From Brachycybe producta (lineage: Eukaryota > Arthropoda > Diplopoda > Playtdesmida > Andrognathidae), in NCBI GenBank assembly GCA_036925085.1, contig JAUPFP010000112.1, forward strand, positions 124,001-188,000: 64,000 nt of DNA, written 5' to 3'. A model generated the notes under the pieces. That model saw only the letters and a list, made by a program, of their open reading frames with translations. It was not told the DNA's origin and made no database searches. Made by a program: the position numbers and the translations under genes. Positions 1-64,000 of the stretch are shown one piece after another. Position 1 is the stretch's first letter; each line of letters opens with the position of its first letter.

Positions 1-1530
1 GGTTGGAAAATGTAAGGTTGGAAAGTGTATGGTTTGAAAGTGTAAGGTTGGAAAGTGTAAGGTTTTAAAGTTTAAGGTTTGAAAGTTTAAGGTTGGAAAG
101 TGTAAGGTTGGAAAGTGTAAGGTTGGAAAGTGTAAGGTTTGAAAGTGTAAGGTTTGAAAGTACAAGGTTTGAAAGTGTAAGATTTGAAAGTGTCAGGTTT
201 GAAAGTGTAATGTTAGAAAGTGTAAAGTTGGAAAGTGCAAGGTTTGAAAGTGTAAGGTTTAAAAGTGTAAGGTATAAAAGTGTAAGGTTGGAAAGTGTAA
301 GGTTGGAAATTGTAAGATTGGAAAGTGTAAGGTTGGAAAGTGTAAGGTTGGAAAGTATAAGGTTGGAAAGTGTAATGTTAGAAATTGTAAGGTTGGAAAG
401 TGTAAGGTTGGAAAATGTAAGGTTGGAAAGTGTAAGGCTGGAAAGTGTAAGGTTTGAAAGTACAAGGTTGGAAAGTGTAAGGTTAGAAAGTGTAAGGTTA
501 GAAAGTGTAAGGTTGGAAATTGTAAGGTTGGAAAGTGTAAGGTATGAAAGTGCAAGGTTTGAAAGTAAAAAGTTTAAAAGTGCAAGGTTTGAAAGTGCAA
601 GGTTTGGAAGTGTAAGGTTTGAAAGTGTAAGGTTTGAAAGTACAAGGTTTGAAAGTGTAAGGTTTGAAAGTGTAAGGTTTGAAAGTGTAAGGTTTGAAAG
701 TGCAAGGTTTGAAAGTGTAAGGTTTGAAAGTGTAAGCTTTGAAAGTGTAAGGTTTGAAAGTGTATGGTTTGAAAGTGTAAGGTTGGAAAGTGTAAGGTTG
801 GAAAGTGTAAGGTTGAAAAAATGTAAGATTGGAAAGTGTAAGATTGGAATGTGTAAGGTTGGAAGTATAAGGTTTGAAAGTGTAAGGTTGGAAAGTGTAA
901 GGTTGGAAAGTGTAAGGTCTGAAAGTGTAAGGTTTGAAAGTGTAATTTTGGAAAGTGTAAGGTTTGAAAATGTAAGGTTTGAAAGTGTAAGGATTTAAAG
1001 TGCAAGATTTGAAAGTGAAAGAATTGAAAGTGTAAGGTTTGAAAGTGTAAGGTTGAAAAGTGTAAGGTTTGAAAGTGTAAGCTTTGAAAGTGTAAGGTTG
1101 GAAAATGTATGGTTTGAAAGTGTAAGTTTGGAAAGTGTAAGGTTGAAAAGTGTAAGGTTGGAAAGTGTAAAGTTAAAAAGTTTAAGGTTTGAAAGTGTAA
1201 GGTTGGAAAGTGTAAGGATGGAAAGTGTAAGGTTTGAAAGTACAAGGTTGGAAAGTGCAAGGTTGGAAAGTGTAAGGTTGGAAAGTGTAAGGTTTTAAAG
1301 TGTAAAGTTTGAAAGTGCAAGGTTTGAAAGTGTAAGGTTTGAAAGTGTAAGGTTTGAAAGTGTAAGGTTTGAAAGTGCAAGGTTTAAAATTGTAAGGTTT
1401 GAAAGTGCAATTTTTGAAAGTGCAAGGTTTGAAAGTGCAAGGTTTGAAAGTGCAAAGTTTGAAAGTGCAAGGTTTGAAAGTTTAAGGTTTGAAAGTTTAA
1501 GGTTTGAAAGTATAAGGTTTGAAAGTTTAT

Positions 1531-2157
1531 GGTTTGACAGTTTAAGGTTTGACAGTGTAAGGTTTGACAGTTTAAGGTTTGACAGTTTAAGGTTTGACCG
1601 TTTAAGGTTTGACAGTTTAAGGTTTGACAGTGTAAGGTTTGCCAGTGTAAGGTTTGAAAGTGTAAGGTTTGACAGTGTAAGGTTTGACAGTGTAAGGTTT
1701 GAAAGTGTAAGGTTTGAAAATGTAAGGCTTGAAAGTGTAAGGTTTGATAATGTAAGGTTTTAGTGTAAGGTTTGAAAGTGTAAGGTTTGACAGTGTAAGG
1801 TTTGACAGTGTAAGGTTTGACAGTGTAAGGTTTGAAAGTGTAAGATTTGAAAGTGTAAGGTTTGAAAGTTTAAGGTTTGAAAGTTTAAGGTTTGAAAGTT
1901 TAAGGTTTGAATGTGTAAGGTTTGACAGTGTAAGGTTTGACAGTGTAATTTTTGACAGTAAATAGTTTGACAGTGTAAGGTTTGACAGTTTAAGGTTTGG
2001 CAGTGTAAGGTTTGACAGTGTAATTTTGACAGTTTAAGATTTTACAGTGTAAGCTTTGACAGTTTAAGGTTTGACAGTGTAAGGTTTGACAGTTTACGGT
2101 TTGTCAGTTTAAGGTTTGACAGTTTACAGTTTGACAGTTTAAGGTTTGACAGTTTAA
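1531..2157 (+). repeat. GACAG block 1 (class I, full length)
   Basis: Here GAAAG is largely replaced by GACAG, mostly with GTTTAA ends. It contains GACCG near 1596 and TTTGCCAG near 1640. The 13-bp unit GGTTTTAGTGTAA is at 1756-1768, and a TTGTCAG landmark is near 2101. Two GAAAG islands sit inside it. It is followed by the standard tail GGTTGTAAAGTGTAA. Confidence 0.9.
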
Positions 2158-2306
2158 GGTTGTAAAGTGTAAGGTTTGAAATTGTAAAGTTTGAAAGTGT
2201 AAGGTTTGAAAGTGCAATTTTTGAAAGTGCAAGGTTTGAAAGTGCAAGGTTTGAAAGTAAAGGTTTGAAAGTGCAAGGTTTGAAAGTGCATGGTTTGAAA
2301 GTGTAA

Positions 2307-2546
2307 TTTTGGAAAGTGTAAGGTTGGAAAGTGTAAGGTTGGAAAATGTAAGGTTGGAAAGTGTAAGGTTGGAAAGTGTAAGGTTGGAAAGTGTAAGGTT
2401 GGAAAGTGTAAGGTTGGAAAGTGTAAGGTTGGAAAGTGTAAGCTTGGAAAGTGTAAGGTTGGAAAGTGTAAGGTTGGAAAGTGTAAGGTTGGAAAGTGTA
2501 AGGTTGGAAAGTGTAAGGTTGGAAAATGTAACATTGGAAAGTGTAA
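2307..2546 (+). repeat. GGTTGG run, 16 units
   Basis: This near-uniform run of GGTTGGAAAGTGTAA starts with a TTTTGG unit and ends with an ACATTGG unit. It carries one AAAATG and one AAGCTTGG variant, which mark the run type. Confidence 0.9.
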
Positions 2547-5171
2547 GGTTTGAAAGTGTAAGGTTGGAAAGTTTAAGGTTGGAATGTGTAAGGTTATAAA
2601 GTGTAAGGTTGGAAAGTGTAAGGTTAGAAAATGTAAAGTTGGAAAGTATAAGATTGAAAAGTCTAAGGTTGGAAAGTGTAAGGTTGGAAAGTATAAGGTT
2701 GGAAAGTGTAAGGTTTGAAAGTGTAAGGTTTGAAAGTACAAGGTTTGAAAGTGTAAGATTTGAAAGTGTAAGGTTTGAAAGTGTAATTTTGGAAAGTGTA
2801 AGGTTGGAAAGTGTAAGGTTGGAAAATGTAAGGTTGGAAAGTGTATGGTTTGAAAGTGTAAGGTTGGAAAGTGTAAGGTTTTAAAGTTTAAAGTTTGAAA
2901 GTTTAAGGTTGGAAAGTGTAAGGTTGGAAAGTGTAAGGTTGGAAAGTGTAAGGTTTGAAAGTACAAGATTTGAAAGTGTAAGATTTGAAAGTGCAAGGTT
3001 TGAAAGTGTAATGTTAGAAAGTGTAAAGTTGGAAAGTGCAAGGTTTGAAAGTGTAAGGTTTAAAAGTGTAAGGTATAAAAGTGTAAGGTTGGAAAGTGTA
3101 AGTTTGGAAATTGTAAGATTGGAAAGTGTAAGGTTGGAAAGTGTAAGGTTAGAAAGTATAAGGTTGGAAAGTGTAATGTTATAAAGTGTAAGGTTTGAAA
3201 GTGTAAGGTTTGACAGTGTAAGTTTTTAAAGTGTAAGGTTTTAAAGTGTAAGGTTGGAAAGTATAAGGTTAGAAATTGTAAGGTTGGAAAGTGTAAGGTT
3301 GGAAAATGTAAGGTTGGAAAGTGTAAGGTTATAAAGTGTAAGGTTTGAAAGTACAAAGTTGGAAAGTGTAAGGTTAGAAAGTGTAAGGTTAGCAAGTGTA
3401 AGGTTGGAAAGTGTAAGGTTGGAAATTGTAAGGTATGAAAGTGCAAGGTTTGAAAGTAAAAGGTTTAAAAGTGCAAGGTTTGAAAGTGCAAGGTTTGGAA
3501 GTGTAAGGTTTGAAAGTGTAAGGTTTGAAAGTACAAGGTTTGAAAGTGTAAGGTTTGAAAGTGTAAGGTTAGAAAGTGTATGGATTGAAAGTGTAAGGTT
3601 GGAAAGTGTAAGGTTTGAAAATTTAAGGTTTGAAAGTTTAAGGTTGGAAAGTGTAAGGTTGGAAAGTGTAAGGTTGGAAAGTGTAAGGTTTGAAAGTGTA
3701 AGGTTTGAAAGTGTAAGGTTTGAAAGTACCAGGTTTGAAACTGAAAGGTTTGAAAGTGTAAGGTTGGAAAGTGTAAGGTTGGAAAGTGTAAGGTTGGAAA
3801 GTGTAAGGTTTGAAAGTGTAAGGTTAGAAAGTGTAAGGTTAGAAAGTGTAAGGTTAGAAAGTGTAAGGTTGGAAAGTGTAAGGTTTGAAAGTGTAAGGCT
3901 GGAAAATGTAAGGTTGGAAAGTGTAAGGTTGGAAAGTGAAAGGTTTGAAAGTACAAGGTTAGAAAGTGTAAGGTTAGAAAGTGTAAGGTTAGAAAGTGTA
4001 AGGTTAGAAAGTGTAAAGTTAGAAAGTGTAAGGTTGGAAATTGTAAGGTTGGAAAGTGTAAGGTATGAAAGTGCAAGGTTTGAAAGTAAAAGGTTTAAAA
4101 GTGCAAAATTTGAAAGTGCAAGGTTTGAAAGTTTAAGGTTTGAAAGTTTATGGTTTGACAGTTTAAGGTTTGACAGTGTAAGGTTTGAAAGTGTAAGGTT
4201 TGAAAGTGTAAGGTTTGAATGTGTAAGGTATAAAAGTGTAAGGTTTTAAAATGTAAGGTTTGAAAGTGTAACTTTTGAAAGTGTAAGGTTGGAAAGTGTA
4301 AGGTTGGAAAGTGTAAGGTTGGAAAGTGTAAGGTTGGAAAGTGTAAGGTTGGAAAGTGTAAGGTTTGAAAGTGTAATGTTTGAAAGTGCAAGGTTTGAAA
4401 GTGCAAGGTTTGAAAGTGTGAATTTTGAAAGTGTAATTTTTGAAAGTGTAAGGTTTGAAAGTGCAAGGTTTGAAAGTGCAAGGTTTGAAAGTGCAAGGTT
4501 TGAAATTATTAGGTTTGAAAGTGCAATTTTTGAAAGTGCAAGGTTTGAAAGAGCAATGTTTTAAATTGCAAGGTTTGAAAAATTAAGGTTTGAAAGTTTA
4601 TGGTTTGACAGTTTAAGGTTTGACAGTGTAAGGTTTGAAAGTGTAAGGTTTGAAAGTGTATGGTTGGAAAGTGTAAGGTCTGAAAGTGTAAGGTTTGAAA
4701 GTGTAAGGTTAGAAAGTGTAAGGTTAGAAAGTGTAAGGTTAGAAAGTGTAAGGTTGGAAAGTGTAAGGTTTGAAAGTGTAAGGCTGGAAAATGTAAGGTT
4801 GGAAAGTGTAAGGTTGGAAAGTGAAAGGTTTGAAAGTACAAGGTTAGAAAGTGTAAGGTTAGAAAGTGTAAGGTTAGAAAGTGTAAGGTTAGAAAGTGTA
4901 AAGTTAGAAAGTGTAAGGTTGGAAATTGTAAGGTTGGAAAGTGTAAGGTATGAAAGTGCAAGGTTTGAAAGTAAAAGGTTTAAAAGTGCAAGATTTGAAA
5001 GTGCAAGGTTTGAAAGTTTAAGGTTTGAAAGTTTATGGTTTGACAGTTTAAGGTTTGACAGTGTAAGGTTTTAAAGTGTAAGGTTTGAAAGTGTAAGGTT
5101 TGAATGTGTAAGGTATAAAAGTGTAAGGTTTTAAAATGTAAGGTTTGAAAGTGTAACTTTTGAAAGTGTAA

Positions 5172-5456
5172 GGTTGGAAAGTGTAAGGTTGGAAAGTGTA
5201 AGGTTGGAAAGTGTAAGGTTGGAAAATGTAAGGTTGGAAAGTGTAAGGTTGGAAAGTGTAAGGTTGGAAAGTGTAAGGTTGGAAAGTGTAAGGTTGGAAA
5301 GTGTAAGGTTGGAAAGTGTAAGGTTGGAAAGTGTAAGGTTGGAAAGTGTAAGCTTGGAAAGTGTAAGGTTGGAAAGTGTAAGGTTGGAAAGTGTAAGGTT
5401 GGAATGTGTAAGGTTGGAAAGTGTAAGGTTGGAAAATGTAACATTGGAAAGTGTAA
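5172..5456 (+). repeat. GGTTGG run, 19 units
   Basis: It has the same internal markers as the run at 2307 (AAAATG, AAGCTTGG, ACATTGG) but three more units, and one GGAATG variant near 5401. Confidence 0.9.
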
Positions 5457-6820
5457 GGTTTGAAAGTGTAAGGTTGGAAAGTTTAAGGTTGGAATGTGTA
5501 AGGTTATAAAGTGTAAGGTTGGAAAGTGTAAGGTTAGAAAATGTAAAGTTGGAAAGTATAAGATTGGAAAGTCTAAGGTTGGAAAGTGTAAGGTTGGAAA
5601 GTATAAGGTTGGAAAGTGTAAGGTTTGAAAGTGTAAGGTTTGAAAGTACAAGGTTTGAAAGTGTAAGATTTGAAAGTGTAAGGTTTGAAAGTGTAATGTT
5701 AGAAAGTCTAAAGTTGGAAAGTGCAAGGTTTGAAAGTGTAAGGTTTAAAAGTGTAAGGTTGGAAAGTGTAAGGTTGGAAATTGTAAGATTGGAAAGTGTA
5801 AGGTTGGAAAGTGTAAGGTTAGAAAGTATAAGGTTGGAAAGTGTAATGTTATAAAGTGTAAGGTTTGAAAGTGTAAGGTTTGACAGTGTAAGGTTTTAAA
5901 GTGTAAGGTTTTAAAGTGTAAGGTTGGAAAGTATAAGGTTAGAAATTGTAAGGTTGGAAAGTGTAAGGTTGGAAAATGTAAGGTTGGAAAGTGTAAGGCT
6001 GGAAAATGTAAGGTTGGAAAGTGTAAGGTTGGAAAGTGTAAGGTTTGAAAGTACAAGGTTGGAAAGTGTAAGGTTAGAAAGTGTAAGGTTAGAAAGTGTA
6101 AGGTTGGAAAGTGTAAGGTTGGAAATTGTAAGGTTGGAAAGTGTAAGGTATGAAAGTGCAAGGTTTGAAAGTAAAAGGTTTAAAAGTGCAAGGTTTGAAA
6201 GTGCAAGGTTTGGAAGTGTAAGGTTTGAAAGTGTAAGGTTTGAAAGTACAAGGTTTGAAAGTGTAAGGTTTGAAAGTGTAAGTTTTGAAAGTGTAAGGTT
6301 TGAAAGTGCAAGGTTTGAAAGTGTAAGGTTTGAAAGTGTAAGGTTTGAAAGTGCAAGGTTTGAAAGTGTAAGGTTGGAAAGTTTAAGTTTGAAAGTGTAA
6401 GCTTTGAAAGTGTAAGGTTAGAAAGTGTATGGATTGAAAGTGTAAGGTTGGAAAGTGTAAGGTTTGAAAGTTTAAGGTTTGAAAGTTTAAGGTTTGAAAG
6501 TTTAAGGTTGGAAAGTGTAAGGTTGGAAAGTGTAAGGTTGGAAAGTGTAAGGTTTGAAAGTGTAAGGTTTGAAAGTGTAAGGTTTGAAAGTACCAGGTTT
6601 GAAACTGTAAGGTTTGAAAGTGTAAGGTTGGAAAGTGTAAGGTTGGAAAGTGTAAGGTTGGAAAGTGTAAGATTTGAAAGTGTAAGGTTAGAAAGTGTAA
6701 GGTTAGAAAGTGTAAGGTTAGAAAGTGTAAGGTTGTAAAGTGTAAGGTTTGAAAGTGTAAGGCTGGAAAATGTAAGGTTGGAAAGTGTAAGGTTGGAAAG
6801 TGAAAGGTTTGAAAGTACAA

Positions 6821-6925
6821 GGTTAGAAAGTGTAAGGTTAGAAAGTGTAAGGTTAGAAAGTGTAAGGTTAGAAAGTGTAAGGTTAGAAAGTGTAAGGTTA
6901 GAAAGTGTAAAGTTAGAAAGTGTAA
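6821..6925 (+). repeat. GGTTAG run, six units plus one AGTTAG unit
   Basis: A short homogeneous run of GGTTAGAAAGTGTAA after a GTACAA unit. The R counterpart at 25014 has four such units, so this is a local copy-number difference of 30 bp. Confidence 0.9.
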
Positions 6926-9189
6926 GATTGGAAATTGTAAGGTTGGAAAGTGTAAGGTATGAAAGTGCAAGGTTTGAAAGTAAAAGGTTTAAAAGTGCAA
7001 GATTTGAAAGTGCAAGGTTTGAAAGTTTAAGGTTTGAAAGTTTATGGTTTGACAGTTTAAGGTTTGACAGTGTAAGGTTTGAAAGTGTAAGGTTTGAAAG
7101 TGTAAGGTTTGAATGTGTAAGGTATAAAAGTGTAAGGTTTTAAAATGTAAGGTTTGAAAGTGTAACTTTTGAAAGTGTAAGGTTGGAAAGTGTAAGGTTG
7201 GAAAGTGTAAGGTTGGAAAGTGTAAGGTTGGAAAGTGTAAGGTTGGAAAGTGTAAGGTTTGAAAGTGTAAGGTTTGAAAGTGCAAGGTTTGAAAGTGCAA
7301 GGTTTGAAAGTGTGAATTTTGAAAGTGTAATTTTTGAAAGTGTAAGGTTTGAAAGTGCAAGGTTTGAAAGTGCAAGGTTTGAAATTATTAGGTTTGAAAG
7401 TGCAATTTTTGAAAGTGCAAGGTTTGAAAGAGCAATGTTTTAAATTGCAAGGTTTGAAAAATTAAGGTTTGAAAGTTTATGGTTTGACAGTTTAAGGTTT
7501 GACAGTGTAAGGTTTGAAAGTGTAAGGTTTGAAAGTGTATGGTTGGAAAGTGTAAGTCTGAAAGTGTAAGGTTTGAAAGTGTAATTTTGGAAAGTGTAAG
7601 GTTTGAAAATGTAAGGTTTGAAAGTGTAAGGTTTTAAAGTGCAAGATTTGAAAGTGAAAGAATTGAAAGTGTAAGGTTTGAAAGTGTAAGGTTGAAAAGT
7701 GTAAGGTTTGAAAGTGTAAGCTTTGAAAGTGTAAGGTTGGAAAGTGTAAGGTTGGAAAGTGTAAGGTTGGAAAGTGTAAGGTTGGAAAGTGTAAGGTTGG
7801 AAAGTGTAAGGTTGGAAAGTGTAAGGTTGGAAAGTGTAAGGTTGGAAAGTGTAAGGTTTGAAAGTACAAGGTTGGAAAGTGTAAGCTTGGAAAGTGTAAG
7901 GTTGGAAAGTGTAAGGTTGGAAAGTGTAAGGTTGGAAAGTGTAAGGTTGGAAAGTGTAAGGTTGGAAAATGTAACATTGGAAAGTGTAAGGTTTGAAAGT
8001 GTAATTTTGGAAAGTGTAAGGTTGGAAAGTGTAAGGTTGGAAAGTGTAAGGTTAGAAAATGTAAAGTTGGAAAGTATAAGATTGGAAAGTCTAAGGTTGG
8101 AAAGTGTAAGGTTGGAAAGTACAAGGTTGGAAAGTGTAAGGTTTGAAAGTGTAAGGTTTGAAAGTACAAGGTTTGAAAGTGTAAGATTTGAAAGTGTAAG
8201 GTTTGAAAGTGTAATGTTAGAAAGTGTAAAGTTGGAAAGTGCAAGGTTTGAAAGTGTAAGGTTTAAAAGTGTAAGGTATAAAAGTGTAAGGTTCGAAAGT
8301 GTAAGGTTGGAAATTGTAAGATTGGAAAGTGTAACGTTGGAAAGTGTAAGGTTTGAAAGTGTAAGGTTTGAAAGTGTAATTTTGGAAAGTGTAAGGTTGG
8401 AAAGTGTAAGGTTGGAAAATGTAAGGTTGGAAAGTGTATGGTTTGAAAGTGTAAGGTTGGAAAGTGTAAGGTTTTAAAGTTTAAGGTTTGAAAGTTTAAG
8501 GTTGGAAAGTGTAAGGTTGGAAAGTGTAAGGTTGGAAAGTGTAAGGTTTGAAAGTGTAAGGTTTGAAAGTACAAGGTTTGAAAGTGTAAGATTTGAAAGT
8601 GTCAGGTTTGAAAGTGTAATGTTAGAAAGTGTAAAGTTGGAAAGTGCAAGGTTTGAAAGTGTAAGGTTTAAAAGTGTAAGGTATAAAAGTGTAAGGTTGG
8701 AAAGTGTAAGGTTGGAAATTGTAAGATTGGAAAGTGTAATGTTGGAAAGTGTAAGGTTGGAAAGTATAAGGTTGGAAAGTGTAATGTTAGAAATTGTAAG
8801 GTTGAAAAGTGTAAGGTTGGAAAGTGTAAAGTTAAAAAGTTTAAGGTTTGAAAGTGTAAGGTTGGAAAGTGTAAGGATGGAAAGTGTAAGGTTTGAAAGT
8901 ACAAGGTTGGAAAGTGCAAGGTTGGAAAGTGTAAGGTTGGAAAGTGTAAGGTTTTAAAGTGTAAAGTTTGAAAGTGCAAGGTTTGAAAGTGTAAGGTTTG
9001 AAAGTGTAAGGTTTGAAAGTGTAAGGTTTGAAAGTGCAAGGTTTAAAATTGTAAGGTTTGAAAGTGCAATTTTTGAAAGTGCAAGGTTTGAAAGTGCAAG
9101 GTTTGAAAGTGCAAAGTTTGAAAGTGCAAGGTTTGAAAGTTTAAGGTTTGAAAGTTTAAGGTTTGAAAGTATAAGGTTTGAAAGTTTTT

Positions 9190-9786
9190 GGTTTGACAGT
9201 TTAAGGTTTGACAGTGTAAGGTTTGACAGTTTAAGGTTTGACAGTTTAAGGTTTGACCGTTTAAGGTTTGACAGTTTAAGGTTTGACAGTGTAAGGTTTG
9301 CCAGTGTAAGGTTTGAAAGTGTAAGGTTTGACAGTGTAAGGTTTGACAGTGTAAGGTTTGAAAGTGTAAGGTTTGAAAATGTAAGGCTTGAAAGTGTAAG
9401 GTTTGATAATGTAAGGTTTTAGTGTAAGGTTTGACAGTGTAAGGTTTGACAGTGTAAGGTTTGAAAGTGTAAGATTTGAAAGTGTAAGGTTTGAAAGTTT
9501 AAGGTTTGAAAGTTTAAGGTTTGAAAGTTTAAGGTTTGAATGTGTAAGGTTTGACAGTGTAAGGTTTGACAGTGTAATTTTTGACAGTAAATAGTTTGAC
9601 AGTGTAAGGTTTGACAGTTTAAGGTTTGGCAGTGTAAGGTTTGACAGTGTAATTTTGACAGTTTAAGATTTTACAGTGTAAGCTTTGACAGTTTAAGGTT
9701 TGACAGTGTAAGGTTTGACAGTTTACGGTTTGTCAGTTTAAGGTTTGACAGTTTACAGTTTGACAGTTTAAGGTTTGACAGTTTAA
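9190..9786 (+). repeat. GACAG block 2 (class I)
   Basis: It is almost the same as block 1, including GACCG near 9256, the 13-bp unit at 9415-9427 and the TTGTCAG landmark, but lacks about two units. It is preceded by a GTTTTT variant in place of the usual GTTTAT. Confidence 0.9.
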
Positions 9787-9935
9787 GGTTGTAAAGTGTA
9801 AGGTTTGAAATTGTAAAGTTTGAAAGTGTAAGGTTTGAAAGTGCAATTTTTGAAAGTGCAAGGTTTGAAAGTGCAAGGTTTGAAAGTAAAGGTTTGAAAG
9901 TGCAAGGTTTGAAAGTGCATGGTTTGAAAGTGTAA

Positions 9936-10220
9936 TTTTGGAAAGTGTAAGGTTGGAAAGTGTAAGGTTGGAAAGTGTAAGGTTGGAAAGTGTAAGGTTG
10001 GAAAGTGTAAGGTTGGAAAATGTAAGGTTGGAAAGTGTAAGGTTGGAAAGTGTAAGGTTGGAAAGTGTAAGGTTGGAAAGTGTAAGGTTGGAAAGTGTAA
10101 GGTTGGAAAGTGTAAGGTTGGAAAGTGTAAGCTTGGAAAGTGTAAGGTTGGAAAGTGTAAGGTTGGAAAGTGTAAGGTTAGAAAGTGTAAGGTTGGAAAA
10201 TGTAACATTGGAAAGTGTAA
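9936..10220 (+). repeat. GGTTGG run, 19 units
   Basis: The run has a GGTTAG unit near 10176 and ends at ACATTGG. It is followed directly by GTGCAA units, because the GTCTAA/GTATAA zone seen after other runs is missing. Confidence 0.9.
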
Positions 10221-10385
10221 GGTTTGAAAGTGCAAGGTTTAAAATTGTAAGGTTTGAAAGTGCAATTTTTGAAAGTGCAAGGTTTGAAAGTGCAAGGTTT
10301 GAAAGTGCAAAGTTTGAAAGTGCAAGGTTTGAAAGTTTAAGGTTTGAAAGTTTAAGGTTTGAAAGTTTAAGGTTTGAAAGTTTAA

Positions 10386-10460
10386 GGTTTGACAGTTTAC
10401 GGTTTGTCAGTTTAAGGTTTGACAGTTTACAGTTTGACAGTTTAAGGTTTGACAGTTTAA
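10386..10460 (+). repeat. GACAG block 3 (five-unit stub)
   Basis: Only the right end of a GACAG block is present, including TTACGG and TTGTCAG, directly after a run of GAAAGTTTAA units. It appears to be an internal deletion of a larger block. Confidence 0.85.
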
Positions 10461-10910
10461 GGTTGTAAAGTGTAAGGTTTGAAATTGTAAAGTTTGAAAG
10501 TGTAAGGTTTGAAAGTGCAATTTTTGAAAGTGCAAGGTTTGAAAGTGCAAGGTTTGAAAGTACAAGGTTTGAAAGTATAAAGTTAGAAATTGTAAGGTTG
10601 GAAAGTGTAAGGTTGGAAAATGTAAGGTTGGAAAGTGTAAGGCTGGAAAATGTAAGGTTGGAAAGTGTAAGGTTTGAAAGTGTAAGGTTTGAAAGTGTAG
10701 TTTTGGAAAGTTTAAGGTTGGAAAGTGTAAGGTTGGAAAATGTAAGGTTGGAAAGTGTATGGTTTGAAAGTGTAAGGTTGGAAAGTGTAAGGTTTTAAAG
10801 TTTAAGGTTTGAAAGTTTAAGGTTGGAAAGTGTAAGGTTGGAAAGTGTAAGGTTGGAAAGTGTAAGGTTTGAAAGTACAAGGTTTGAAAGTGTAAGATTT
10901 GAAAGTGTAA

Positions 10911-15658: not shown

Positions 15659-15733
15659 GGTTTTAAAGTGCAAGGTTTGAAAGTACAAGGTTTGAAAGTG
15701 CAAGGTTTGAAAGTGCATGGTTTGAAAGTGTAA

Positions 15734-44567: not shown

Positions 44568-44589
44568 GGTTTGAAAGTGTAAGGTTTGA

Positions 44590-52285: not shown

Positions 52286-52897
52286 GGTTTGACAGTGTAA
52301 GGTTTGAAAGTGTAAGGTTTGACAGTTTAAGGTTTGACAGTTTAAGGTTTGACAGTTTAAGGTTTGACAGTTTAAGGTTTGACAGTGTAAGGTTTGCCAG
52401 TGTAAGGTTTGAAAGTGTAAGGTTTGACAGTGTAAGGTTTGACAGTGTAAGGTTTGAAAGTGTAAGGTTTGAAAATGTAAGGCTTGAAAGTGTAAGGTTT
52501 GAAAGTGTAAGGTTTGATAATGTAAGGTTTTAGTGTAAGGTTTGAAAGTGTAAGGTTTGACAGTGTAAGGTTTGAAAGTGTAAGATTTGAAAGTGTAAGG
52601 TTTGAAAGTTTAAGGTTTGAAAGTTTAAGGTTTGAAAGTTTAAGGTTTGAAAGTTTAAGGTTTGACTGTGTAAGGTTTGACAGTGTAAGGTTTGACAGTG
52701 TAAGGTTTGACACTGTAAGGTTTGACAGTACATAGTTTGACAGTGTAAGGTTTGACAGTTTAAGGTTTGGCAGTGTAAGGTTTGACAGTGTAATTTTGAC
52801 AGTTTAAGATTTTACAGTGTAATTTTTGACAGTTTAAGGTTTGACAGTGTAAGGTTTGACAGTTTACGGTTTGTCAGTTTAAGGTTTGACAGTTTAA
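52286..52897 (+). repeat. GACAG block 20 (class I, complete)
   Basis: It is the complete form of truncated block 16. The 13-bp unit is at 52526-52538. It carries GTACATAG near 52727, where other blocks have AAATAG, and GACACTG near 52710. Confidence 0.9.
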
Positions 52898-55693
52898 GGT
52901 TGTAAAGTGTAAGGTTTGAAATTGTAAAGTTTGAAAGTGTAAGGTTTGAAAGTGCAATTTTTGAAAGTGCAAGGTTTGAAAGTGCAAGGTTTGAAAGTGC
53001 AAGGTTTGAAAGTACAAGGTTTGAAAGTGCAAGGTTTGAAAGTGCATGGTTTGAAAGTGTAATTTTGGAAAGTGTAAGGTTGGAAAGTGTAAGGTTGGAA
53101 AATGTAAGGTTGGAAAGTGTAAGGTTGGAAAGTGTAAGGTTGGAAAGTGTAAGGTTGGAAAGTGTAAGGTTGGAAAGTGTAAGGTTGGAAAGTGTAAGGT
53201 TGGAAAGTGTAAGGTTGGAAAGTGTAAGCTTGGAAAGTGTAAAGTTGGAAAGTGTAAGGTTGGAAAGTGTAAGGTTGGAAAGTGTAAGGTTGGAAAGTGT
53301 AAGGTTGGAAAGTGTAAGGTTGGAAAATGTAACATTGGGAAGTGTAAGGTTTGAAAGTGTAAGGTTGGAAAGTTTAAGGTTGGAATGTGTAAGGTTATAA
53401 AGTGTAAGGTTGGAAAGTGTAAGGTTAGAAAATGTAAAGTTGGAAAGTATAAGATTGGAAAGTCTAAGGTTGGAAAGTGTAAGGTTGGAAAGTATAAGGT
53501 TGGAAAGTGTAAGGTTTGAAAGTGTAAGGTTTGAAAGTACAAGGTTTGAAAGTGTAAGATTTGAAAGTGTAAGGTTTGAAAGTGTAATGTTAGAAAGTGT
53601 AAAGTTGGAAAGTGCAAGGTTTGAAAGTGTAAGGTTTAAAAGTGTAAGGTTGGAAAGTGTAAGGTTGGAAATTGTAAGATTGGAAAGTGTAATGTTGGAA
53701 AGTGTAAGGTTTGAAAGTGTAAGGTTTGAAAGTGTAATTTTGGAAAGTGTAAGGTTGGAAAGTGTAAGGTTGGAAAATGTAAGGTTGGAAAGTGTATGGT
53801 TTGAAAGTGTAAGGTTGGAAAGTGTAAGGTTTTAAAGTTTAAGGTTTGAAAGTTTAAGGTTGGAAAGTGTAAGGTTGGAAAGTGTAAGGTTGGAAAGTGT
53901 AAGGTTTGAAAGTGTAAGGTTTGAAAGTACAAGATTTGAAAGCGTAAGATTTGAAAGTGTAAGGTTTGAAAGTGTAATGTTAGAAAGTGTAAAGTTGGAA
54001 AGTGCAAGGTTTGAAAGTGTAAGGTTTAAAAGTGTAAGGTATAAAAGTGTAAGGTTGGAAAGTGTAAGTTTGGAAATTGTAAGATTGGAAAGTGTAAGGT
54101 TGGAAAGTGTAAGGTTAGAAAGTATAAGGTTGGAAAGTGTAATGTTATAAAGTGTAAGGTTTGAAAGTGTAAGGTTTGACAGTGTAAGGTTTTAAAGTGT
54201 AAGGTTTTAAAGTGTAAGGTTGGAAAGTATAAGGTTAGAAATTGTAAGGTTGGAAAGTGTAAGGTTGGAAAATGTAAGGTTGGAAAGTGTAAGGCTGGAA
54301 ATTGTAAGGTTGGAAAGTGTAAGGTTGGAAAGTGTAAGGTTTGAAAGTACAAGGTTGGAAAGTGTAAGGTTAGAAAGTGTAAGGTTAGAAAGTGTAAGGT
54401 TGGAAAGTGTAAGGTTGGAAATTGTAAGGTTGGAAAGTGTAAGGTATGAAAGTGCAAGGTTTGAAAGTAAAAGGTTTAAAAGTGCAAGGTTTGAAAGTGC
54501 AAGGTTTGGAAGTGTAAGGTTTGAAAGTGTAAGGTTTGAAAGTACAAGGTTTGAAAGTGTAAGGTTTGAAAGTGTAAGGTTTGAAAGTGTAAGGTTTGAA
54601 AGTGCAAGGTTTGAAAGTGTAAGGTTTGAAAGTGTAAGGTTTGAAAGTGCAAGGTTTGAAAGTGTAAGGTTGGAAAGTTTAAGTTTGAAAGTGTAAGCTT
54701 TGAAAGTGTAAGGTTAGAAAGTGTATGAATTGAAAGTGTAAGGTTGGAAAGTGTAAGGTTTGAAAGTTAAGGTTTGAAAGTTTAAGGTTGGAAAGTGTAA
54801 GGTTGGAAAGTGTAAGGTTGGAAAGTGTAAGGTTTGAAAGTGTAATGTTTGAAAGTGTAAGGTTTGAAAGTACCAGGTTTGAAACTGTAAGGTTTGAAAG
54901 TGTAAGGTTGGAAAGTGTAAGGTTGGAAAGTGTAAGGTTGGAAAGTGTAAGGTTTGAAAGTGTAAGGTTAGAAAGTGTAAGGTTAGAAAGTGTAAGGTTA
55001 GAAAGTGTAAGGTTGGAAAGTGTAAGATTTGAAAGTGTAAGGCTGGAAAATGTAAGGTTGGAAAGTGTAAGGTTGGAAAGTGAAAGGTTTGAAAGTAGAA
55101 GGTTAGAAAGTGTAAGGTTAGAAAGTGTAAGGTTAGAAAGTGTAAGGTTAGAAAGTGTAAAGTTAGAAAGTGTAAGGTTGGAAATTGTAAGGTTGGAAAG
55201 TGTAAGGTATGAAAGTGCAAGGTTTGAAAGTAAAAGGTTTAAAAGTGCAAGATTTGAAAGTGCAAGGTTTGAAAGTTTAAGGTTTGAAAGTTTATGGTTT
55301 GACAGTTTAAGGTTTGACAGTGTAAGGTTTGAAAGTGTAAGGTTTGAAAGTGTAAGGTTTGAATGTGTAAGGTATAAAAGTGTAAGGTTTTAAAATGTAA
55401 GGTTTGAAAGTGTAACTTTTGAAAGTGTAAGGTTGGAAAGTGTAAGGTTGGAAAGTGTAAGGTTGGAAAGTGTAAGGTTGGAAAGTGTAAGGTTGGAAAG
55501 TGTAAGGTTTGAAAGTGTAAGGTTTGAAAGTGCAAGGTTTGAAAGTGCAAGGTTTGAAAGTGTGAATTTTGAAAGTGTAATTTTTGAAAGTGTAAGGTTT
55601 GAAAGTGCAAGGTTTGAAAGTGCAATGTTTGAAATTATTAGGTTTGAAAGTGCAATTTTTGAAAGTGCAAGGTTTGAAAGAGCAATGTTTTAA
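52898..55693 (+). repeat. Higher-order segment shared with 22.8-25.6 kb and 5.0-7.4 kb
   Basis: The order of GGTTGG run, AACATTGG unit, GTCTAAGG unit, GTATAA units, GGTTAG run, TACCAGG unit and GTGCAA patch follows that of 22.8-25.6 kb, at an offset near 30.09 kb over much of its length. It also follows 5.0-7.4 kb. This is a third occurrence of part of the L/R super-repeat, outside that duplication. Confidence 0.8.
53063..53347 (+). repeat. GGTTGG run, 19 units
   Basis: This run carries an AAAGTTGG unit after the AAGCTTGG marker and ends with ACATTGGG, both unique among the runs compared. Confidence 0.9.
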
Positions 55694-57721
55694 ATTGCAA
55701 GGTTTGAAAAATTAAGGTTTGAAAGTTTATGGTTTGACAGTTTAAGGTTTGACAGTGTAAGGTTTGAAAGTGTAAGGTTTGAAAGTGTATGGTTGGAAAG
55801 TGTAAGGTCTGAAAGTGTAAGGTTTGAAAGTGTAATTTTAAAGTGTAAGGTTTGAAAATGTAAGGTTTGAAAGTGTAAGGTTTTAAAGTGCAAGATTTGA
55901 AAGTGAAAGAATTGAAAGTGTAAGGTTTGAAAGTGTAAGGTTGAAAAGTGTAAGGTTTGAAAGTGTAAGCTTTGAAAGTGTAAGGTTGGAAAGTGTAAGG
56001 TTGGAAAGTGTAAAGTTGGAAAGTGTAAGGTTGGAAAGTGTAAGGTTGGAAAGTGTAAGGTTGGAAAGTGTAAGGTTTGACTGTGTAAGGTTTGACAGTG
56101 TAAGGTTTGACAGTGTAAGGTTTGACAGTGTAAGGTTTGACAGTGTAAGGTTTGACAGTAAATAGTTTGACAGTGTAAGGTTTGACAGTTTAAGGTTTGG
56201 CAGTGTAAGGTTTGACAGTGTAATTTTGACAGTTTAAGATTTTACAGTGTAATTTTTGACAGTTTAAGGTTTGACAGTGTAAGGTTTGACAGTTTACGGT
56301 TTGTCAGTTTAAGGTTTGACAGTTTAAGGTTGTAAAGTGTAAGGTTTGAAATTGTAAAGTTTGAAAGTGTAAGGTTTGAAAGTGCAATTTTTGAAAGTGC
56401 AAGGTTTGAAAGTGCAAGGTTTGAAAGTGCACGGTTTGAAAGTACAAGGTTTGAAAGTGCAAGGTTTGAAAGTGCATGGTTTGAAAGTGTAATTTTGGAA
56501 AGTGTAAGGTTGGAAAGTGTAAGGTTGGAAAATGTAAGGTTGGAAAGTATAAGATTGGAAAGTCTAAGGTTGGAAAGTGTAAGGTTGGAAAGTTTAAGGT
56601 TGGAAATTGTAAGATTGGAAAGTGTAATGTTGGAAAGTGTAAGGTTTGAAAGTGTAAGGTTTGAAAGTGTAATTTTGGAAAGTGTAAGGTTGGAAAGTGT
56701 AAGGTTGGAAAATGTAAGGTTGGAAAGTGTATGGTTTGAAAGTGTAAGGTTGGAAAGTGTAAGGTTTTAAAGTTTAAGGTTTGAAAGTTTAAGGTTTTAA
56801 AGTGTAAGGTTGGAAAGTGTAAGGTTGGAAAGTGTAAGGTTTGAAAGTGTAAGGTTTGAAAGTACAAGATTTGAAAGTGTAAGATTTGAAAGTGTAAGGT
56901 TTGAAAGTGTAATGTTAGAAAGTGTAAAGTTGGAAAGTGCAAGGTTTGAAAGTGTAAGGTTTAAAAGTGTAAGGTATAAAAGTGTAAGGTTGGAAAGTGC
57001 AAGTTTGGAAATTGTAAGATTGGAAAGTGTAAGGTTGGAAAGTGTAAGGTTGGAAAGTGTAAGGTTAGAAAGTATAAGGTTGGAAAGTGTAATGTTATAA
57101 AGTGTAAGGTTTGAAAGTGTAAGGTTTGACAGTGTAAGGTTTTAAAGTGTAAGGTTTTAAAGTGTAAGGTTGGAAAGTATAAGGTTAGAAATTGTAAGGT
57201 TGGAAAGTGTAAGGTTCGAAAATGTAAGGTTGGAAAGTGTAAGGCTGGAAATTGTAAGGTTGGAAAGTGTAAGGTTGGAAAGTGTAAGGTTTGAAAGTAC
57301 AAGGTTGGAAAGTGTAAGGTTAGAAAGTGTAAGGTTAGAAAGTGTAAGGTTGGAAAGTGTAAGGTTGGAAATTGTAAGGTTGGAAAGTGTAAGGTATGAA
57401 AGTGCAAGGTTTGAAAGTAAAAGGTTTAAAAGTGCAAGGTTTGAAAGTGCAAGGTTTGGAAGTGTAAGGTTTGAAAGTGTAAGGTTTGAAAGTGCAAGGT
57501 TTGAAAGTGTAAGGTTTGAAAGTGTAAGGTTTGAAAGTGCAAGGTTGGAAAGTGTAAGGTTGGAAAGTTTAAGTTTGAAAGTGTAAGCTTTGAAAGTGTA
57601 AGGTTAGAAAGTGTATGGATTGAAAGTGTAAGGTTGGAAAGTGTAAGGTTTGAAAGTTTAAGGTTTGAAAGTTTAAGGTTGGAAAGTGTAAGGTTGGAAA
57701 GTGTAAGGTTGGAAAGTGTAA
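54831..57721 (+). repeat. Right-end higher-order repeat unit Z (2,891 bp)
   Basis: It starts at a GGTTTG unit followed by AATGTTTG and then TACCAGG, the same start as the next two units. It differs from them in having a GGTTGG run cut down to a few units near 56.5 kb, and in ending with a segment (about 57.55-57.72 kb) that the following unit lacks. It is the least similar of the three right-end units. Confidence 0.8.
56074..56327 (+). repeat. GACAG block 21 (short)
   Basis: It starts abruptly with GACTG after a GGTTGG run. The left part of the class I block and the 13-bp unit are absent. TTGTCAG and the tail are intact. It belongs to right-end unit Z. Confidence 0.9.
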
Positions 57722-59039
57722 GGTTTGAAAGTGTAATGTTTGAAAGTGTAAGGTTTGAAAGTACCAGGTTTGAAACTGTAAGGTTTGAAAGTGTAAGGTT
57801 GGAAAGTGTAAGGTTGGAAAGTGTAAGGTTGGAAAGTGTAAGGTTTGAAAGTGTAAGGTTAGAAAGTGTAAGGTTAGAAAGTGTAAGGTTAGAAAGTGTA
57901 AGGTTGGAAAGTGTAAGGTTTGAAAGTGTAAGGCTGAAAAATGTAAGGTTGGAAAGTGTAAGGTTGGAAAGTGAAAGGTTTGAAAGTACAAGGTTAGAAA
58001 GTGTAAGGTTAGAAAGTGTAAGGTTAGAAAGTGTAAGGTTAGAAAGTGTAAAGTTAGAAAGTGTAAGGTTGGAAATTGTAAGGTTGGAAAGTGTAAGGTA
58101 TGAAAGTGCAAAGTTTGAAAGTAAAAGGTTTAAAAGTGCAAGATTTGAAAGTGCAAGGTTTGAAAGTTTAAGGTTTGAAAGTTTATGGTTTGACAGTTTA
58201 AGGTTTGACAGTGTAAGGTTTGAAAGTGTAAGGTTTGAAAGTGTAAGGTTTGAATGTGTAAGGTATAAAAGTGTAAGGTTTTAAAATGTAAGGTTTGAAA
58301 GTGTAACTTTTGAAAGTGTAAGGTTGGAAAGTGTAAGGTTGGAAAGTGTAAGGTTGGAAAGTGTAAGGTTGGAAAGTGTAAGGTTGGAAAGTGTAAGGTT
58401 GGAAAGTGTAAGGTTGGAAAGTGTAAGGTTTGAAAGTGTAAGGTTTGAAAGTGCAAGGTTTGAAAGTGCAAGGTTTGAAAGTGTGAATTTTGAAAGTGTA
58501 ATTTTTGAAAGTGTAAGGTTTGAAAGTGCAAGGTTTGAAAGTGCAAGGTTTGAAATTATTAGGTTTGAAAGTGCAATTTTTGAAAGTGCAAGGTTTGAAA
58601 GAGCAATGTTTTAAATTGCAAGGTTTGAAAAATTAAGGTTTGAAAGTTTATGGTTTGACAGTTTAAGGTTTGACAGTGTAAGGTTTGAAAGTGTAAGGTT
58701 TGAAAGTGTATGGTTGGAAAGTGTAAGGTCTGAAAGTGTAAGGTTTGAAAGTGTAATTTTAAAGTGTAAGGTTTGAAAATGTAAGGTTTGAAAGTGTAAG
58801 GTTTTAAAGTGCAAGATTTGAAAGTGAAAGAATTGAAAGTGTAAGGTTTGAAAGTGTAAGGTTGAAAAGTGTAAGGTTTGAAAGTGTAAGCTTTGAAAGT
58901 GTAAGGTTGGAAAGTGTAAGGTTGGAAAGTGTAAGGTTGGAAAGTGTAAGGTTGGAAAGTGTAAAGTTGGAAAGTGTAAGGTTGGAAAGTGTAAGGTTGG
59001 AAAGTGTAAGGTTGGAAAGTGTAAGGTTGGAAAGTGTAA

Positions 59040-59234
59040 GGTTTGACTGTGTAAGGTTTGACAGTGTAAGGTTTGACAGTGTAAGGTTTGACAGTGTAAG
59101 GTTTGACAGTAAATAGTTTGACAGTGTAAGGTTTGACAGTTTAAGATTTTACAGTGTAATTTTTGACAGTTTAAGGTTTGACAGTGTAAGGTTTGACAGT
59201 TTACGGTTTGTCAGTTTAAGGTTTGACAGTTTAA
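59040..59234 (+). repeat. GACAG block 22 (short)
   Basis: It is the counterpart of block 21 in unit A, shortened further by loss of four units between AAATAG and the ATTTTACAG unit. Confidence 0.9.
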
Positions 59235-59399
59235 GGTTGTAAAGTGTAAGGTTTGAAATTGTAAAGTTTGAAAGTGTAAGGTTTGAAAGTGCAATTTTTG
59301 AAAGTGCAAGGTTTGAAAGTGCAAGGTTTGAAAGTGCAAGGATTGAAAGTACAAGGTTTGAAAGTGCAAGGTTTGAAAGTGCATGGTTTGAAAGTGTAA

Positions 59400-59639
59400 T
59401 TTTGGAAAGTGTAAGGTTGGAAAGTGTAAGGTTGGAAAATGTAAGGTTGGAAAGTGTAAGGTTGGAAAGTGTAAGGTTGGAAAGTGTAAGGTTGGAAAGT
59501 GTAAGGTTGGAAAGTGTAAGGTTGGAAAGTGTAAGCTTGGAAAGTGTAAGGTTGGAAAGTGTAAGGTTGGAAAGTGTAAGGTTGGAAAGTGTAAGGTTGG
59601 AAAGTGTAAGGTTGGAAAATGTAACATTGGAAAGTGTAA
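59400..59639 (+). repeat. GGTTGG run, 16 units
   Basis: This is the run of right-end unit A, with the same markers as the run at 2307. Confidence 0.9.
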
Positions 59640-60390
59640 GGTTTGAAAGTGTAAGGTTGTAAAGTTTAAGGTTGGAATGTGTAAGGTTATAAAGTGTAAG
59701 GTTGGAAAGTGTAAGGTTAGAAAATGTAAAGTTGGAAAGTATAAGATTGGAAAGTCTAAGGTTGGAAAGTGTAAGGTTGGAAAGTATAAGGTTGGAAAGT
59801 GTAAGGTTTAAAAGTGTAAGGTTTGAAAGTACAAGGTTTGAAAGTGTAAGATTTGAAAGTGTATGGTTTAAAAGTGTAAGGTTTAAAAGTGTAAGGTTGG
59901 AAAGTGTAAGGTTGGAAATTGTAAGATTGGAAAGTGTAATGTTGGAAAGTGTAAGGTTTGAAAGTGTAAGGTTTGAAAGTGTAATTTTGGAAAGTGTAAG
60001 GTTGGAAAGTGTAAGGTTGGAAAATGTAAGGTTGGAAAGTGTATGGTTTGAAAGTGTAAGGTTGGAAAGTGTAAGGTTTTAAAGTTTAAGGTTTGAAAGT
60101 TTAAGGTTGGAAAGTGTAAGGTTGGAAAGTGTAAGATTTGAAAGTGTAAGGTTTGAAAGTACAAGATTTGAAAGTGTAAGATTTGAAAGTGTAAGGTTTG
60201 AAAGTGTAATGTTAGAAAGTGTAAAGTTGGAAAGTGCAAGGTTTGAAAGTGTAAGGTTTAAAAGTGTAAGGTATAAAAGTGTAAGGTTGGAAAGTGTAAG
60301 TTTGGAAATTGTAAGATGAGGAAAGTGTAAGGTTGGAAAGTGTAAGGTTAGAAAGTATAAGGTTGGAAAGTGTAATGTTATAAAGTGTAA

Positions 60391-60411
60391 GGTGTAAGGT
60401 GTAAAGTGTAA
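60391..60411 (+). repeat. Irregular units GGTGTAA (7 bp) and GGTGTAAAGTGTAA (14 bp)
   Basis: These replace one standard 15-bp unit with 21 bp and shift the register by +6. The same pair recurs at 63486-63506 in unit B but is absent at the matching place in unit Z (near 57.11 kb). Confidence 0.9.
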
Positions 60412-62119
60412 GGTTTGACAGTGTAAGGTTTTAAAGTGTAAGGTTTTAAAGTGTAAGGTTGGAAAGTATAAGGTTAGAAATTGTAAGGTTGGAAAGTGTA
60501 AGGTTGGAAAATGTAAGGTTGGAAAGTGTAAGGCTGGAAAATGTAAGGTTGGAAAGTGTAAGGTTGGAAAGTGTAAGGTTTGAAAGTACAAGGTTGGAAA
60601 GTGTAAGGTTAGAAAGTGTAAGGTTAGAAAGTGTAAGGTTGGAAAGTGTAAGGTTGGAAATTGTAAGGTTGGAAAGTGTAAGGTATGAAAGTGCAAGGTT
60701 TGAAAGTAAAAGGTTTAAAAGTGCAAGGTTTGAAAGTGCAAGGTTTGAAAGTAAAAGGTTTAATAGTGCAAGGTTTGAAAGTGCAAGGTTTGGAAGTGTA
60801 AGGTTTGAAAGTGTAAGGTTTGAAAGTGTAAGGTTTGAAAGTACCAGGTTTGAAACTGTAAGGTTTGAAAGTGTAAGGTTGGAAAGTGTAAGGTTGGAAA
60901 GTGTAAGGTTGGAAAGTGTAAGGTTTGAAAGTGTAAGGTTAGAAAGTGTAAGGTTAGAAAGTGTAAGGTTAGAAAGTGTAAGGTTGGAAAGTGTAAGGTT
61001 TGAAAGTGTAAGGCTGGAAAATGTAAGGTTGGAAAGTGTAAGGTTGGAAAGTGAAAGGTTTGAAAGTACAAGGTTAGAAAGTGTAAGGTTAGAAAGTGTA
61101 AGGTTAGAAAGTGTAAGGTTAGAAAGTGTAAAGTTAGAAAGTGTAAGGTTGGAAATTGTAAGGTTGGAAAGTGTAAGGTATGAAAGTGCAAAGTTTGAAA
61201 GTAAAAGGTTTAAAAGTGCAAGATTTGAAAGTGCAAGGTTTGAAAGTTTAAGGTTTGAAAGTTTATGGTTTGACAGTTTAAGGTTTGACAGTGTAAGGTT
61301 TGAAAGTGTAAGGTTTGAAAGTGTAAGGTTTGAATGTGTAAGGTATAAAAGTGTAAGGTTTTAAAATGTAAGGTTTGAAAGTGTAACTTTTGAAAGTGTA
61401 AGGTTGGAAAGTGTAAGGTTGGAAAGTGTAAGGTTGGAAAGTGTAAGGTTGGAAAGTGTAAGGTTGGAAAGTGTAAGGTTGGAAAGTGTAAGGTTGGAAA
61501 GTGTAAGGTTGGAAAGTGTAAGGTTTGAAAGTGTAAGGTTTGAAAGTGCAAGGTTTGAAAGTGTGAATTTTGAAAGTGTAATTTTTGAAAGTGTAAGGTT
61601 TGAAAGTGCAAGGTTTGAAAGTGCAAGGTTTGAAATTATTAGGTTTGAAAGTGCAATTTTTGAAAGTGCAAGGTTTGAAAGAGCAATGTTTTAAATTGCA
61701 AGGTTTGAAAAATTAAGGTTTGAAAGTTTATGGTTTGACAGTTTAAGGTTTGACAGTGTAAGGTTTGAAAGTGTAAGGTTTGAAAGTGTATGGTTGGAAA
61801 GTGTAAGGTCTGAAAGTGTAAGGTTTGAAAGTGTAATTTTAAAGTGTAAGGTTAGAAAATGTAAGGTTTGAAAGTGTAAGGTTTTAAAGTGCAAGATTTG
61901 AAAGTGAAAGAATTGAAAGTGTAAGGTTTGAAAGTGTAAGGTTGAAAAGTGTAAGGTTTGAAAGTGTAAGCTTTGAAAGTGTAAGGTTGGAAAGTGTAAG
62001 GTTGGAAAGTGTAAGGTTGGAAAGTGTAAGGTTGGAAAGTGTAAAGTTGGAAAGTGTAAGGTTGGAAAGTGTAAGGTTGGAAAGTGTAAGGTTGGAAAGT
62101 GTAAGGTTGGAAAGTGTAA

Positions 62120-62314
62120 GGTTTGACTGTGTAAGGTTTGACAGTGTAAGGTTTGACAGTGTAAGGTTTGACAGTGTAAGGTTTGACAGTAAATAGTTTG
62201 ACAGTGTAAGGTTTGACAGTTTAAGATTTTACAGTGTAATTTTTGACAGTTTAAGGTTTGACAGTGTAAGGTTTGACAGTTTACGGTTTGTCAGTTTAAG
62301 GTTTGACAGTTTAA
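62120..62314 (+). repeat. GACAG block 23 (short)
   Basis: It lies exactly 3,080 bp after block 22 and has the same length, in unit B. Confidence 0.9.
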
Positions 62315-62479
62315 GGTTGTAAAGTGTAAGGTTTGAAATTGTAAAGTTTGAAAGTGTAAGGTTTGAAAGTGCAATTTTTGAAAGTGCAAGGTTTGAAAGT
62401 GCAAGGTTTGAAAGTGCAAGGATTGAAAGTACAAGGTTTGAAAGTGCAAGGTTTGAAAGTGCATGGTTTGAAAGTGTAA

Positions 62480-62719
62480 TTTTGGAAAGTGTAAGGTTGG
62501 AAAGTGTAAGGTTGGAAAATGTAAGGTTGGAAAGTGTAAGGTTGGAAAGTGTAAGGTTGGAAAGTGTAAGGTTGGAAAGTGTAAGGTTGGAAAGTGTAAG
62601 GTTGGAAAGTGTAAGCTTGGAAAGTGTAAGGTTGGAAAGTGTAAGGTTGGAAAGTGTAAGGTTGGAAAGTGTAAGGTTGGAAAGTGTAAGGTTGGAAAAT
62701 GTAACATTGGAAAGTGTAA
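62480..62719 (+). repeat. GGTTGG run, 16 units
   Basis: This is the run of right-end unit B, exactly 3,080 bp after that of unit A and unchanged in length. Confidence 0.9.
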
Positions 62720-63485
62720 GGTTTGAAAGTGTAAGGTTGTAAAGTTTAAGGTTGGAATGTGTAAGGTTATAAAGTGTAAGGTTGGAAAGTGTAAGGTTAG
62801 AAAATGTAAAGTTGGAAAGTATAAGATTGGAAAGTCTAAGGTTGGAAAGTGTAAGGTTGGAAAGTATAAGGTTGGAAAGTGTAAGGTTTAAAAGTGTAAG
62901 GTTTGAAAGTACAAGGTTTGAAAGTGTAAGATTTGAAAGTGTATGGTTTGAAAGTGTAAGGTTTAAAAGTGTAAGGTTGGAAAGTGTAAGGTTGGAAATT
63001 GTAAGATTGGAAAGTGTAATGTTGGAAAGTGTAAGGTTTGAAAGTGTAAGGTTTGAAAGTGTAATTTTGGAAAGTGTAAGGTTGGAAAGTGTAAGGTTGG
63101 AAAATGTAAGGTTGGAAAGTGTATGGTTTGAAAGTGTAAGGTTGGAAAGTGTAAGGTTTTAAAGTTTAAGGTTTGAAAGTTTAAGGGTTTGAAAGTTTAA
63201 GGTTGGAAAGTGTAAGGTTGGAAAGTGTAAGATTTGAAAGTGTAAGGTTTGAAAGTACAAGATTTGAAAGTGTAAGATTTGAAAGTGTAAGGTTTGAAAG
63301 TGTAATGTTAGAAAGTGTAAAGTTGGAAAGTGCAAGGTTTGAAAGTGTAAGGTTTAAAAGTGTAAGGTATAAAAGTGTAAGGTTGGAAAGTGTAAGTTTG
63401 GAAATTGTAAGATTGGAAAGTGTAAGGTTGGAAAGTGTAAGGTTAGAAAGTATAAGGTTGGAAAGTGTAATGTTATAAAGTGTAA

Positions 63486-63506
63486 GGTGTAAGGTGTAAA
63501 GTGTAA
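63486..63506 (+). repeat. Irregular units GGTGTAA and GGTGTAAAGTGTAA, second copy
   Basis: It is identical to the pair at 60391-60411. Its sharing shows that the change arose before units A and B were duplicated. Confidence 0.9.
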
Positions 63507-64000
63507 GGTTTGACAGTGTAAGGTTTTAAAGTGTAAGGTTTTAAAGTGTAAGGTTGGAAAGTATAAGGTTAGAAATTGTAAGGTTGGAAAGTGTAAGGTT
63601 GGAAAATGTAAGGTTGGAAAGTGTAAGGCTGGAAAATGTAAGGTTGGAAAGTGTAAGGTTGGAAAGTGTAAGGTTTGAAAGTACAAGGTTGGAAAGTGTA
63701 AGGTTAGAAAGTGTAAGGTTAGAAAGTGTAAGGTTGGAAAGTGTAAGGTTGGAAATTGTAAGGTTGGAAAGTGTAAGGTATGAAAGTGCAAGGTTTGAAA
63801 GTAAAAGGTTTAAAAGTGCAAGGTTTGAAAGTGCAAGGTTTGAAAGTAAAAGGTTTAATAGTGCAAGGTTTGAAAGTGCAAGGTTTGGAAGTGTAAGGTT
63901 TGAAAGTGTAAGGTTTGAAAGTGTAAGGTTTGAAAGTACAAGGTTTGAAAGTGTAAGGTTTGAAAGTGTAAGGTTTGAAAGTGTAAGGTTTGAAAGTGCA

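Follow-up and report, generated by a model that had tools for sequence, protein, structure and literature searches.

Nested block copies at three scales, without a fixed higher-order unit, in a 15-bp satellite array of Brachycybe producta

Structure of the array and its monomer

The window, by which we mean the whole 64,000-nucleotide stretch of DNA analysed here (C112:124,001–188,000), lies on a contig of 306,966 bp (JAUPFP010000112.1, hereafter C112) in the Brachycybe producta assembly (295.3 Mb, 442 contigs). C112 was read from 1 to 258,000 and over its last 8 kb. An unbroken satellite array of one polarity, with a monomer of 15 bp, occupies positions 1–64,000 of the window on the forward strand (lag-15 identity 0.88). 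Wrap-around alignment with the 15-mer parses the window into 4,237 pieces, of which 4,179 measure exactly 15 bp and 223 are distinct; even the 60-bp stretch of lowest identity agrees with the tiled consensus at 76.7%. Tiling and worst stretch together establish that the array fills the window from end to end, in agreement with an earlier sequence-only reading, which had described an uninterrupted 64-kb satellite. On C112, the array extends from 1 to ~250,900 and is interrupted twice (~32.3–43.5 and 55.9–68.9 kb); the window falls inside the final uninterrupted run, 182 kb long (C112:68,918–250,900).

The most frequent monomer in the window is GGTTGGAAAGTGTAA (n = 766), and not GGTTTGAAAGTGTAA (n = 609), to which the sequence-only reading had given first place. 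Monomer positions 5, 8, 12 and 13 are the most variable, and random pairs of monomers compared in register are 84.4% identical. The base composition of the window is A 34%, C 2%, G 32% and T 32%; one strand is thus nearly devoid of C. A coding repeat was considered, as a five-codon monomer keeps frames open on both strands, and rejected, because pieces of 13, 14, 16, 28 and 29 bp (those of 28 and 29 bp being two monomers parsed together) break the reading frame. ORFs of up to 398 aa, seen in one array piece that was inspected, are attributed to composition. The array therefore has the properties of satellite DNA: it is long and arranged head to tail, and its frame-breaking pieces mark it, as far as sequence can tell, as non-coding.

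Copies at three scales

Superimposed on the 15-bp period are copies of much larger blocks. Words of 60, 120 and 300 bases that occur more than once cover 90%, 75% and 40% of the window, respectively, compared with ~4%, 0 and 0 in monomer shuffles (n = 5) and ~50%, 2% and 0 in first-order Markov versions (n = 3). In monomer space, the top local alignment scores 6,608, against 22–26 in shuffles (n = 3), and 243 ungapped copied segments in the window score at least 70, lower scores having been discarded (one shuffle, searched on one diagonal in five, reached a maximum of 16). The lags found in the window are 2.38–3.47 kb, 7,629–7,838 bp and 17.8–19.9 kb, with further copy offsets of 27.3 and 33 kb in the array. 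These results confirm that copies on the 15-bp monomer are nested at three scales, as the sequence-only reading had proposed in positing repeat levels beyond plain periodicity. Its unit sizes (2.4–3.1, 7.7 and 18–20 kb) also hold; the reiterated hierarchy that it built from them does not, the two upper levels having two copies each and the base unit being irregular.

The largest of the three is a tandem duplication of ~18 kb, with copy 1 at 2,203–20,139 and copy 2 at 20,140–39,711 (both forward strand), recovered by monomer alignment as collinear segments at offsets of 17,833 to 19,871. Of 1,197 monomers, 1,131 align, 95.0% of the aligned monomers and 99.58% of their bases being identical, with 40 gap runs of 1–52 monomers and an alignment score of 3,872. 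Two control pairings of unrelated stretches scored 324 and 535; identical bases made up 96.1% and 95.9% of those aligned, but gap runs numbered 227 and 247. Two more controls, which overlapped the true pairing and partly recovered it, scored 2,219 and 2,402. There are only two copies at this level in the window.

A second tandem duplication, with a lag of 7,838 bp, has its copy 1 core at 36,916–44,589 and its copy 2 core at 44,754–52,427 (forward strand). The two cores differ by one mismatch, at 42,080, in 7,674 bp (99.99% identity). This level, too, is present in two copies only in the window and is not reiterated. Just left of the copies, identity is 76/91 bp (83.5%), the level of random in-register monomers, which fits unequal exchange between mispaired monomers.

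The smallest blocks are base units of 3.4 kb (52,720–56,156), 2.95 kb (56,157–59,107) and 3.08 kb (59,108–62,187), all on the forward strand. The first aligns to the next unit over 191 of 229 monomers (99.41% of bases) and the second over 176 of 197 (98.60%); at the third, 57,722–60,089 is 99.75% identical to 60,802–63,169, at a lag of 3,080. Where aligned, neighbouring base-unit pairs (n = 3) are 98.6–99.4% identical. Block copies at all three scales are thus far more alike than monomers within a block (98.6–99.99% versus 84.4%), as is typical of higher-order repeats.

Lag counts, markers and density autocorrelation were used to look for a fixed multi-monomer unit that recurs many times; all that emerged was a loose spacing of 2.4–3.5 kb. 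The marker AGTAAATAGTTTGACAG has ten spacings in the window, ranging from 2,381 to 13,206 bp, with 4 of the 10 between 2.38 and 3.5 kb. Density autocorrelation peaks at 3.0 kb with a value of 0.124, which lies within the spread of 200 shuffles (mean maximum 0.080, highest value 0.143). Best 600-bp twins within the 182-kb array are separated by widely scattered distances, from 0.3 to more than 100 kb (the median is 19.9 kb, and 12% exceed 100 kb), and half of the positions have a twin at least 98.3% identical; the twin search was ungapped and prefiltered, making these values lower bounds. Twins at all distances, together with upper levels of two copies each, indicate irregular multi-scale duplication rather than a fixed unit. 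What results is a mosaic built from duplications of widely differing size, in which no higher-order unit is fixed.

Surroundings and distribution of the array

The array gives way abruptly, at about C112:250,904, to a diverged (TTCAAC)n satellite that shows a 12-bp periodicity and has a strand bias opposite to that of the array. This satellite lies to the right of the window (C112:250,904–306,966, read to 258,000 and over the last 8 kb). Genome-wide, overlapping 30-base matches to this hexamer, a major satellite of the genome, number 22,103 in forward and 34,133 in reverse orientation, a count for which the backward query, a rotation of the same repeat, provides no control. The position of the array next to a genome-wide hexamer satellite fits heterochromatin.

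The two interruptions of the array, to the left of the window, are Ty3/gypsy LTR elements in opposite orientations (C112 ~32,303–43,474 and 55,899–68,917). Both encode reverse transcriptase, RNase H and integrase (gag was looked for in one insert), and both are flanked by 4-bp duplications, AAAG and AAGG, as judged by eye. Their LTR pairs are 99.6% identical (one differing by 3 mismatches over 770 bp, the other by 2 mismatches plus a gap over 793), and both elements are young. The LTRs have diverged about as far as the two ~18-kb copies, so that, given similar rates, the insertions and the duplication would be comparably recent. The inserts are GC-rich (54–60% in the 2-kb bins wholly inside them). 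Their pol-side frames, of at least 2,276 and at least 2,672 aa, extend well beyond the integrase match. One LTR tip sequence of the gypsy family has 468 exact matches in the genome, on C1, C2 and other contigs, and many of the first 100 listed are on contig C1, at ~5.9–20.1 Mb.

Exact copies of the array sequence are concentrated on C112. Exact monomer dimers number 1,203 forward and 812 reverse in the genome, of which 1,119 forward are within the stretch of C112 that was read; as matches are listed in contig order and the first listed is on C112, contigs C1–C111 are without one. Of the 64 forward matches to a run of seven monomers, 56 fall in C112 and 8 outside it. By exact matching, the unit marker occurs 46 times on C112, 26 times on C137 and nowhere else among the 442 contigs. 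C137 (173,538 bp) carries the array at both of its 6-kb tips, in opposite orientation. That C137 might be the other haplotype of C112 was considered and rejected, its tip matches being no longer than the internal matches of C112: the longest between the tips (12 kb of C137 compared) and C112 span 1,305 bp (97.85% identity) and 625 bp (96.5%), and those of seven 6-kb pieces of C112 against the rest of that contig are 972–1,577 bp under the same 97% window threshold.

The arthropod telomere repeat is TTAGG. Six tandem copies of it have 499 forward and 7,180 reverse matches, including a run on C1 from base 5,001 onwards, and TTAGGG and TTAGGC, each as five copies, are absent from the assembly; this points to an arthropod genome. 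The array is built on a 15-mer different from the TTAGG runs near the start of C1 and is not a telomeric repeat. Elsewhere in the assembly, a COX1 fragment on C442 (15,359 bp) reads in the invertebrate mitochondrial code. With the full 114-aa query, COX1-like stretches at C1:12.70 Mb and on C442 score 179.3 bits each and one at C17:4.03 Mb scores 177.8 bits; sequence similarity suggests that those on C1 and C17 are recent nuclear copies of mitochondrial DNA.

Origin of the block copies

The array is probably a non-coding heterochromatic satellite of an arthropod that has spread by in-register unequal exchange, or by replication-based copying between mispaired monomers, with no unit becoming fixed. 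Short monomers can mispair by any multiple of the monomer length; exchange between mispaired arrays would then duplicate or delete blocks of anything from one monomer to tens of kilobases, and recent large exchanges would mimic the levels of a hierarchy. Such a process predicts that copied segments are flanked by sequence in the same register. Among 480 flanks scored, out of 486 (six ran off the window), 441 are in the 15-bp register and 39 are not, compared with 6.8% in register for 20,000 random position pairs, on the understanding that some segment ends may mark higher divergence inside a longer alignment rather than true breakpoints. The flanks thus behave as in-register unequal exchange predicts. 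Copies, sizes, differing identities and mostly in-register flanks are all direct observations; from them we infer that sister-chromatid recombination, rather than another copying process, is the cause, and that the array has no role beyond heterochromatin formation.

Unequal exchange as modelled by Smith reportedly also leaves the edge of an array less homogenised than its interior. Such an edge effect is not clearly seen here. Among the 18 full 10-kb bins of the array, that at 239–249 kb has the lowest mean twin identity (0.931), but the bins at 79–99 kb are almost as low as this edge bin: the mean for 79–89 kb is 0.940, and the smallest share of twins of at least 97% identity belongs to 89–99 kb (0.25 against 0.26). 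Twin identity in the last 1.3 kb at the array edge is 0.960.

Other in-register copying could leave the same register pattern. Rolling-circle copying of extrachromosomal circles followed by reinsertion, which PMC8122249 names as a satellite mechanism, as it does Smith's model, would likewise yield in-register multi-monomer blocks. It should, however, produce several identical copies in a row, and each large block of the window is present only twice, which makes it a very unlikely source. An origin of part of the hierarchy in the assembly process, with the 7,838-bp pair as a false duplication, is suggested by the near-identity of that pair, which is so exact that assembly error may explain it. 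Yet even this pair carries one mismatch, and the ~18-kb copies, differing by ~71 bases (0.42% of 1,131 aligned monomers) and by 40 gap runs, cannot be one false duplicate; we regard an artefact as unlikely.

Two further readings concern where the array resides and are compatible with unequal exchange. It could be the centromere core of one chromosome, with the nesting produced, as in alpha satellite, by turnover beneath kinetochore chromatin. A long array of one polarity, near-identical blocks, the adjoining major satellite and a unit marker confined to two contigs would all suit a centromere, but there is no fixed reiterated unit, and a family confined to such a small number of contigs cannot provide the centromeres of all chromosomes; the two LTR elements within the array also speak somewhat against it, although they are compatible with a centromere. 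On these sequence features, a centromere core seems highly doubtful. Alternatively, the satellite might be private to one chromosome, for example a sex or B chromosome. The restriction of the exact marker to C112 and C137 and the array at both tips of C137 point in this direction, whereas the 8 forward 7-monomer runs outside C112 count against it, and on this sequence evidence we consider the idea unlikely. There is a similarly small chance of its fuller form, in which a chromosome-private satellite (of a sex chromosome, a B chromosome or the centromere of one autosome) stays young by in-register duplication at many scales and never fixes a unit; the blocks would then record, in dated form, exchanges ranging in size from 15 bp to tens of kilobases.

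Returning to in-register unequal exchange as the probable mechanism, the array samples both the sizes of exchanges and the order of events (the 7.8-kb duplication after that of ~18 kb), because half of it retains a twin at least 98.3% identical. It should thus be useful for testing models of satellite growth.

Comparison with known satellites

We found no description of this monomer family in print: full-text matches to six 12-letter cores, covering some of the rotations of the monomer, were judged from titles and the starts of abstracts to be chance matches of the primer type. The family accordingly stays unrecognised, as it had been in the sequence-only reading. An exact 30-mer had 0 matches in each of a prokaryote and a viral contig collection, a result of little weight given the content of these collections. 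The family appears to be new, but its kind is known: it is a short-monomer satellite with kilobase nesting, probably generated by an ordinary mechanism, in which recent duplications are well preserved. Nesting on so short a monomer had been thought unusual when the sequence was read on its own. That rarity fails, as published arrays with monomers of 5 bp and 61 bp contain higher-order repeats of kilobase size. Among the arrays covered by Warburton et al. 2008 (PMC2588610) are 5-bp GAATG arrays with higher-order repeats of 3.36 and 3.6 kb, HSATII with higher-order repeats of ~5.8 kb and a 61-bp VNTR with irregular repeats of 1.6/2.5 kb, and Altemose et al. 2014 (PMC4022460) include units of 1.77 and 3.6 kb in pentamer-derived human satellites.

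The closest parallels, in what these papers present, are human GAATG/HSat3 (DYZ1) and HSat2, in which very short monomers are likewise copied in higher-order blocks of kilobase size (3.36, 3.6, 5.8 and 1.77 kb). They differ in monomer sequence, monomer length and phylum: the present array has a period of 15 and the monomer GGTTKGAAAGTGTAA, and does not originate from the CATTC/GAATG pentamer. Moreover, the human 3.6-kb unit covers the whole sequenced Yq array, as reported there, whereas the spacing in the present array is irregular. In that respect it resembles the 61-bp VNTR of human Xp22.33, for which irregular higher-order repeats of two sizes in a complex arrangement are described, but which spans 18 kb rather than a 182-kb run and has a monomer of 61 rather than 15 bp. 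With alpha satellite it shares multi-monomer block copies (here 98.6–99.99% identical) far above the level of random monomers (here 84.4%); it differs in lacking a fixed reiterated n-mer and in its monomer of 15 rather than 171 bp. The array is an arthropod addition to the satellites in which short monomers are nested at the scale of kilobases, and does not represent a new kind of element.
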